Positions 5,344-44,987 of a stretch of DNA of 64,000 bases are shown piece by piece. The stretch lies in the NCBI GenBank assembly GCA_003851245.1, contig BHEP01000001.1:62001-126000 (forward strand), in the 5' to 3' direction. The position numbers and the translations under genes are program-made. This DNA comes from Bacteroidales bacterium. GTDB lineage: Bacteria; Bacteroidota; Bacteroidia; Bacteroidales; Azobacteroidaceae. Numbering within the stretch: the first letter of the stretch is position 1; each line of letters opens with the position of its first letter. Below the pieces are notes generated by a model. The model made no database searches. It was not told the DNA's origin and was given only the letters and a program-made list of their open reading frames with translations.

Positions 5344-5348
5344 TACTG

Positions 5349-5419
5349 TGTTTTTCATGGTATTAGATTTAAGGTTAACAATGAAGATTGGTTGTCGTGA
5401 TGACAACCTTTTCTTTTTT
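5349..5419 (+). ncRNA. Small RNA gene 1, about 70 nt, own promoter and terminator
   Basis: A stand-alone transcription unit in a 301-nt gene-free gap: a consensus promoter ends at 5343, and a 7-bp GC-rich hairpin (GGTTGTC 5390-5396 with GACAACC 5402-5408) is followed by TTTTCTTTTTT. The body reads TTTTTCATGGTATTAG, then TTTAAGGTTAAC. From memory, similar sequence occurs in intergenic regions of other Bacteroidales, and a related unit lies at about 51.0 kb here. There is no open reading frame of note. The function is unknown; I could not compare it with Rfam families. Confidence 0.72.
5390..5419 (+). terminator. Intrinsic terminator of small RNA 1
   Basis: 7-bp stem, 5-nt loop GTGAT, followed by 10 T in 11 positions. 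Confidence 0.88.
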
Positions 5420-5460
5420 AAATACAAGACTCTATCCTCTCGGTCGGTCCTATCTGTCGG

Positions 5461-43445: not shown

Positions 43446-44744
43446 TTACTTGATTCCAAAAGCTGTTTTTATTTGGCTTATGTAGTCCAATTTCTCCCAT
43501 GTAAAAAGCTCCACTTCCATTGTAACTGGTTCTACATCGTATTTTGAAGAAAATACCTTAGTTACAGTTTCGGGTTTGCGCCCCATGTGTCCATACGATG
43601 CAGTTTCGAGATAGATAGGGTTTCTTAGTTTCAGCCTGATTTCTATTGCTTTTGGACGCATATCGAATATGTCGGCTATTTTTTCTGCAATCTGGCTATC
43701 AGGGATATCAATCTTGCTTCTGCCATAGGTATTTACGAAAATATTCATTGGTTGGGCAACACCAATAGCATAGGCTACCTGCACCAATATTTCGTCACTA
43801 ATGCCAGCGGCAACAAGGTTTTTAGCAATATGGCGAGCTGCATAGGCCGCCGATCTATCTACTTTTGAAGGATCTTTGCCAGAGAAAGCTCCTCCTCCGT
43901 GTGCGCCTTTCCCTCCGTAGGTATCGACGATAATTTTTCTCCCTGTGAGTCCTGTGTCGCCATGGGGTCCGCCAATAACAAATTTTCCAGTGGGATTGAC
44001 GTGGTACTTTATTTTATCATTGAAAAGAGCTTGTACTTGTGGAGGATATTGTGCCTTAATTCGCGGAATAAGAATGGCGATTACATCTTTTTCAATTTTC
44101 TGCTGCATAGCCTTGTCAGCTGCTATTTGGGCTTCATGGGTATTGTCTTTAGGCAATATAAATTCGTCGTGCTGGCTTGATATTACAATTGTATCGATGG
44201 CTTCGGGCGTGCCATCTTCGTGGTACTGTATTGTAACTTGCGATTTTGCGTCGGGGCGCAAATAAGGCATTAGCTGTATTTCTTTTTTGCGTATTTGTGC
44301 CAATTCAATGAGTAAGCTATGCGAAAGATCTAGTGCTAGGGGCATGTAGTTTTCAGTTTCGTTACTTGCATAACCAAACATCATACCTTGGTCGCCAGCT
44401 CCTTGGTTGAGGGGGTCTTCTCTTTCTACTCCTCTGTTGATGTCGCCAGATTGCTCGTGAATGGCACTAAAAACCCCACAGGATTTGGCTTCAAATTGGT
44501 ACTCACTTTTGGTGTATCCAATATCTTGAATAACTTTTCTTGCCACTTCAGGCACGTCAATATAGGCTTTTGATTTTACTTCTCCCGCAAGCACTACCTG
44601 CCCTGTAGTTACGAGAGTTTCGCAGGCCACTTTGGAGTTGGCATCATATGCCAAAAACTGATCTAATAAGGCATCAGAAATCTGATCTGCCACTTTGTCA
44701 GGATGTCCTTCAGACACCGATTCGGAGGTGAATAAGTAACTCAT
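43446..44744 (-). CDS. metK: S-adenosylmethionine synthetase
   Basis: Makes SAM from methionine and ATP. The 432-residue protein has [19 protein letters not shown] at about 7-25 (methionine/ATP site), the flexible loop, the hexapeptide-type [12 protein letters not shown], and the P-loop-like [16 protein letters not shown]. It is about 40 residues longer than E. coli MetK, as usual in Bacteroidales. The 263-nt gap upstream holds a promoter, a SAM-II-like aptamer and a long AT-rich spacer, so expression is probably repressed by its own product. Confidence 0.96.
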
Positions 44745-44909: not shown

Positions 44910-44966
44910 AATATTCAGTTTAGCATTTTTTTTAGTGGTTGCAAGCATACAAATCCGTCCACGTTC
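44910..44966 (-). ncRNA. SAM-II-like riboswitch aptamer in metK leader
   Basis: The minus strand reads CGTGG (44963-44959), then GGATTTG, then GCTTGCAACCAC (ending 44935), an A-rich run and ATGCTAAA. From memory this follows the SAM-II order: P1 5' strand, GATTT loop, GCTTGCA-CCAC closing P1, A-rich segment, GCTAAA. P1 forms as GTGG/CCAC. Position in the leader of metK supports SAM sensing. Unusually, the aptamer lies about 165 nt from the ATG, with no intrinsic terminator between. A covariance-model search would confirm. Confidence 0.75.
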
Positions 44967-44979
44967 TTATATTATTCTA

Positions 44980-44987
44980 CAAAGTTA
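44980..44987 (-). promoter_or_regulatory. -7 box of metK
   Basis: Minus strand TAACTTTG, with a TTG 23 nt upstream. The predicted start at about 44974 places the SAM-II-like aptamer at the very 5' end of a roughly 230-nt leader. Confidence 0.65.

Follow-up and report, generated by a model that had tools for sequence, protein, structure and literature searches.

The metK gene in the stretch of DNA analyzed here (64,000 nucleotides of a Bacteroidales genome, hereafter the window) is preceded by an element that is almost certainly its SAM-II riboswitch, and we put at roughly 0.6 the probability of a fuller model in which this riboswitch would lower metK expression when SAM is plentiful; the parts of it that we infer are that this copy binds SAM, that the switch turns metK off, and that it acts on translation. 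A cmscan search of the 64 kb window matched positions 44968-44910 of the minus strand to RF01726, the long-loop form of SAM-II, with 58.8 bits against a gathering cut-off of 44 (E = 1e-8 in 64 kb). The match covers model positions 1-60 of 60, and is thus full length, and it is the only RF01726 match in the whole genome. The conserved core extends from 44962 to 44919 (minus strand), with stem P1 formed by GTGG/CCAC (44962-44959 with 44938-44935). GGATTTG, GCTTGCAACCAC, an A-run, and then ATGCTAAA, ending at 44919, lie on the same strand, each where an earlier note on this DNA had read the elements of a SAM-II riboswitch in order. Every letter of the invariant RF01726 core (GATTTG, TTGCAACC, and AUGCUAAA) is kept. 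The downstream gene, at 43446-44744 on the minus strand, encodes a methionine adenosyltransferase of 432 amino acids (TIGR01034, 490.6 bits; cut-off 309.4), so that the aptamer precedes a gene of methionine/SAM metabolism, and folK is the gene upstream of the aptamer. The full-length match together with the metK assignment bears out the SAM-II-like riboswitch before metK that the earlier note had described. That note had proposed an Infernal search with RF00521 (SAM_alpha, the alphaproteobacterial SAM-II), which shares with the window P1, a long loop, and a conserved 3' strand in this order and a promoter near P1 (Corbino et al., 2005, PMC1273637). However, RF00521 scored only 15.7 bits on the window (gathering cut-off 36, E = 0.58), and the window has no Shine-Dalgarno sequence to hide; because RF00521 is the other SAM-II model and RF01726 is the one that fits, the proposed search would fail. 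Elsewhere in the window, positions 5348-5420 of the plus strand match FopS small RNA (RF04319, a Bacteroidetes paralogous sRNA family) with 81.4 bits, the cut-off being 56.

The earlier note also regarded SAM-II as best known from alphaproteobacteria. The window copy is instead of the Bacteroidota form, and RF01726 was found in 210 of the 294 Bacteroidales genomes sampled (~71%; 128 of 179 genera), in 33 of 48 from the family, and in 38 of 247 drawn from the phylum. SAM-II in Bacteroides thetaiotaomicron was already part of the 2005 description (PMC1273637), and the long-loop form was reported in 2010 from Bacteroidota and marine metagenomes (Weinberg et al., 2010, PMC2864571). SAM-II in Bacteroidales is a known Bacteroidota element, and the window copy is ordinary apart from its spacer, which is unusually long and carries a counter-strand. 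The aptamer stands before metK in nearly all relatives followed, which gave 193 distinct metK leaders with an aptamer, or 186 once near-identical spacers were removed. Like other RF01726 leaders, that of the window has a full-length model match, the same core letters, a position before metK, and a promoter box just before P1; it differs in its short loop, in a spacer longer than ~96% of the leaders collected, and in a counter-strand that targets the 3' half of the aptamer. In one genome with two RF01726 matches, one of them (L221, G129:C269) precedes not metK but a homocysteine methyltransferase-like gene, read as metH-like from its sequence. The matches in class-level relatives from another order (L181-L196) span ~77-109 nt and are long-loop forms proper, whereas the window match is compact, at 59 nt.

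Transcription of metK most likely begins from the promoter box ahead of the aptamer. TAACTTTG, at 44987-44980 on the minus strand, reads as the -7 box of the primary Bacteroidota sigma factor, whose consensus is TAnnTTTG (PMC7366714). Of the 193 metK leaders, 171 have such a box within the 80 nt that precede P1, in most cases at a distance of 16-28 nt, while the spacers contain just nine occurrences in 16.1 kb. Because the box is coupled to the aptamer and rare in spacers, promoter and aptamer move as one unit, in agreement with the earlier placement of the aptamer just downstream of a promoter box. Nothing indicates a further transcription start closer to the ATG, which the earlier note had suggested looking for, since the window spacer has no TAnnTTTG box and only two one-mismatch matches. 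Three leaders of the sample are arranged differently: in L012 and L019 a tRNA-like 3' end (GGTTCGAGTCCCGTCCGCACCGC) precedes the aptamer, in L039 a similar sequence does, and none of the three has TAnnTTTG in the 60 nt upstream of the aptamer. These leaders may be released through tRNA processing.

The 165 nt that separate position 44910, where the Rfam match ends, from the metK ATG (44744) agree with the earlier reading. Counted from the end of GCTAAA, the window spacer is 174 nt, which is among the seven longest of the 193 leaders (median 81, 10th-90th percentile 64-134, maximum 292); the spacer is thus long but not unique. The accompanying statement that SAM-II normally sits close to the ribosome-binding site needs correction in view of the Bacteroidales spacers, of the A. 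tumefaciens metA aptamer at -161 to -94 (PMC1273637), and of the S. meliloti metA SAM-II, whose target AUG lies 74 nt downstream (PMC9373788). The three-codon micro-ORF noted earlier (ATG CTA AAC TGA) does exist in the window, with its AUG within the conserved AUGCUAAA; it is not conserved, however, the frame from this AUG extending for 3 to 53 codons or staying open into metK across the 193 leaders. We therefore rejected the micro-ORF as a functional feature for want of an evolutionary signal, and read it as a by-product of the sequence.

The feature that sets the window spacer apart is TTAGCTATTTTTATTAGT (also given as UUAGCUAUUUUUAUUAGU), at 44896-44879 on the minus strand, which is complementary to the aptamer 3' half ACTAAAAAAAATGCTAA (44936-44920, including the conserved AUGCUAA strand). 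The complementarity exceeded that of 2000 dinucleotide shuffles at P 0.0025-0.0045, and refolding of the aptamer with 65 nt of spacer gave -19.2 vs -10.5 kcal/mol (P 0.002), P values that are slightly optimistic since several tests were made and that come from folding without pseudoknots or ligand. The duplex of the two strands alone was calculated at -12.0 kcal/mol. The same refold measure was negative in 95% of the 186 leaders. From these folding models, the counter-strand probably does refold the window leader. Since the pairing takes up the conserved 3' strand and the response of SAM-II to SAM requires its pseudoknot (PMC1273637), the aptamer fold and the counter-strand pairing should be mutually exclusive. 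A weak pairing with the aptamer 5' half, in the register usual among relatives, may also form through GTACTCATCCCATCT (44880-44866, minus strand; -7.9 kcal/mol), at a strength in the window not better than that of shuffles (P 0.41-0.67).

The counter-strand of the window thus aims at the aptamer 3' half, while those of its relatives aim mainly at the 5' half. Across the 186 leaders, the spacer pairs with the 5' half beyond dinucleotide-shuffled spacers (mean z -1.24, 81% negative) and with the 3' half to a lesser extent (mean z -0.45), these shuffles taking no account of ancestry. The 5'-half pairing has a fairly fixed place, centered ~31 nt after the core. Exact anti-loop 5-mers occurred in the spacer for its own aptamer in 65 of 185 cases vs 369 of 5581 other combinations. 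This count began after the first 12 nt of the spacer, so as to keep out the pseudoknot strand, and the persistence of the signal led us to reject the pseudoknot's own 3' strand as its source. Furthermore, when sister leaders with differing loops were compared, again leaving out the pseudoknot strand, the own-pairing sum beat the swapped one in 68 of 86 untied pairs and lost in 18 (p = 5e-8), a comparison that accounts for common descent only in part. These results support the presence in Bacteroidales metK spacers of a strand that covaries with the aptamer, mostly with its 5' half, as judged from sequence comparison, and such a strand is the expected anatomy of an expression platform. We found no description of it in the literature searched, although supplements outside that search may contain one. 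TTAGC was not enriched as a general motif (17 leaders vs 20 in shuffles), and the 3'-half counter-strand of the window is therefore not a shared motif.

The Rfam RF01726 model contains no pseudoknot; P2 joins the loop and the 3' strand. Loops with an A before TTGCAA (GATTGA and GACTGA) pair with the nucleotides after GCTAAA, with a mean of 3.3 Watson-Crick pairs in the outer extension for GATTGA, whereas the GTATGC loop, found in the window and in its family, pairs there poorly or not at all. In the window the core letters are kept, and the outer extension after GCTAAA amounts to one Watson-Crick and two G-U pairs of four. The pseudoknot may accordingly be shorter in the GTATGC loop class.

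Under the model that we favor, the TAACTTTG promoter would start transcription immediately before P1. At low SAM, UUAGCUAUUUUUAUUAGU at the start of the spacer would pair with the aptamer 3' half and open the aptamer, and metK would be made; once SAM is bound, the pseudoknot would hold the aptamer together and the counter-strand would be freed. The initiation of translation is the most likely step for the freed strand to act on, and pairing with AUGAGUUACU at the start is a possible means. With the aptamer masked, a weak candidate pairing was indeed obtained between AGTACTCAT (44881-44873, minus strand) and the metK start ATGAGTTACT, at P 0.02-0.31 depending on the stretch tested. Across the order, own start-codon pairing was slightly better than swaps (t about -3.7), CCCA was enriched only in leaders with ATGGG starts, and accessibility modeling was not significant (p = 0.14), for which reason start-codon sequestration is kept as a general output only in the form of a hypothesis. 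No terminator-like site was found in the window spacer, as the earlier note had said, and Bacteroidota initiate translation without Shine-Dalgarno pairing, with structure at the start tuning the process (PMC6847099); on these two grounds we prefer translational control and place termination second, although an output at translation falls slightly short of an even chance. The S. meliloti metA SAM-II likewise has its used start codon far from the aptamer, and its control is probably translational; it differs in having a Shine-Dalgarno sequence inside the riboswitch and a downstream terminator, while the window has no terminator and belongs to a phylum without Shine-Dalgarno pairing (PMC9373788).

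The same riboswitch could instead act through termination, SAM freeing a CU-rich, G-poor spacer for a terminator or for Rho loading, which we consider unlikely for the window. Proteobacterial SAM-II is often tied to terminators (PMC2258182), and terminator-like hairpins occur in 25 of the 186 leaders; many of these belong to the family of the window, where many leaders have a small terminator with compensatory stem changes (TCTGATAA/TTATCAGA vs TCCGGT/ACCGGA). One leader, L266 (G168:C7), has a counter-strand, AAATCTCTCC, that doubles as complement of the aptamer and as 5' arm of an intrinsic terminator hairpin followed by a U-tract; read from its sequence, it is a Bacteroidales SAM-II leader with a textbook attenuator layout and legible SAM-off logic. 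However, most leaders, like that of the window, have no terminator-like site. The base composition of the spacers 10-40 nt after the core (C 0.29, G 0.11; vs C 0.21, G 0.15 upstream of riboswitch-less metK) would also suit Rho loading, but the C-richness may merely reflect complementarity to a G-containing aptamer strand.

Slightly less probable is an aptamer that acts with no counter-strand at all, SAM binding alone blocking or stabilizing the leader (for example, through mRNA decay or ribosome standby) and the window pairing being due to chance. Stabilization of SAM-II mRNAs by SAM binding in S. meliloti (PMC9373788), the chance-level 5'-half pairing of the window, and a 3'-half target unlike that of relatives would fit such an aptamer; the significant refolding of the window leader, the negative refold measure in nearly all leaders, and the order-wide covariation argue against it. 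It is very improbable that the aptamer is decaying and metK regulation lost. The family does include nearly complete genomes (G004, G008, and G013) that have no aptamer, and in G004, a genome of 1.2 Mb, an apparent truncated remnant lies directly before metK (L278). The poor outer pseudoknot pairing of the window would point the same way, but it is common to the whole GTATGC loop class, where core and promoter persist, and the window itself has a full-length match well over the cut-off with an intact core and promoter box. The L278 remnant, TATCTTTG...GAGGGAAAGGAATCTGTATGTTCACAA directly 5' of metK, resembles the aptamer 5' half with the 3' half gone, and may represent riboswitch decay in a reduced genome; no aptamer is recognizable before metK in L277 and L279.

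Returning to a riboswitch with a counter-strand, we tentatively propose that SAM-II of Bacteroidales shares an undescribed counter-aptamer expression platform, without Shine-Dalgarno and mostly without terminator, and that the strand in the window's lineage, once directed at the aptamer 5' half, now targets the 3' half. How riboswitches control genes in a phylum that does not use Shine-Dalgarno sequences is less clear than the element itself, and the covarying counter-strand is a concrete pairing that is open to mutation and rescue.
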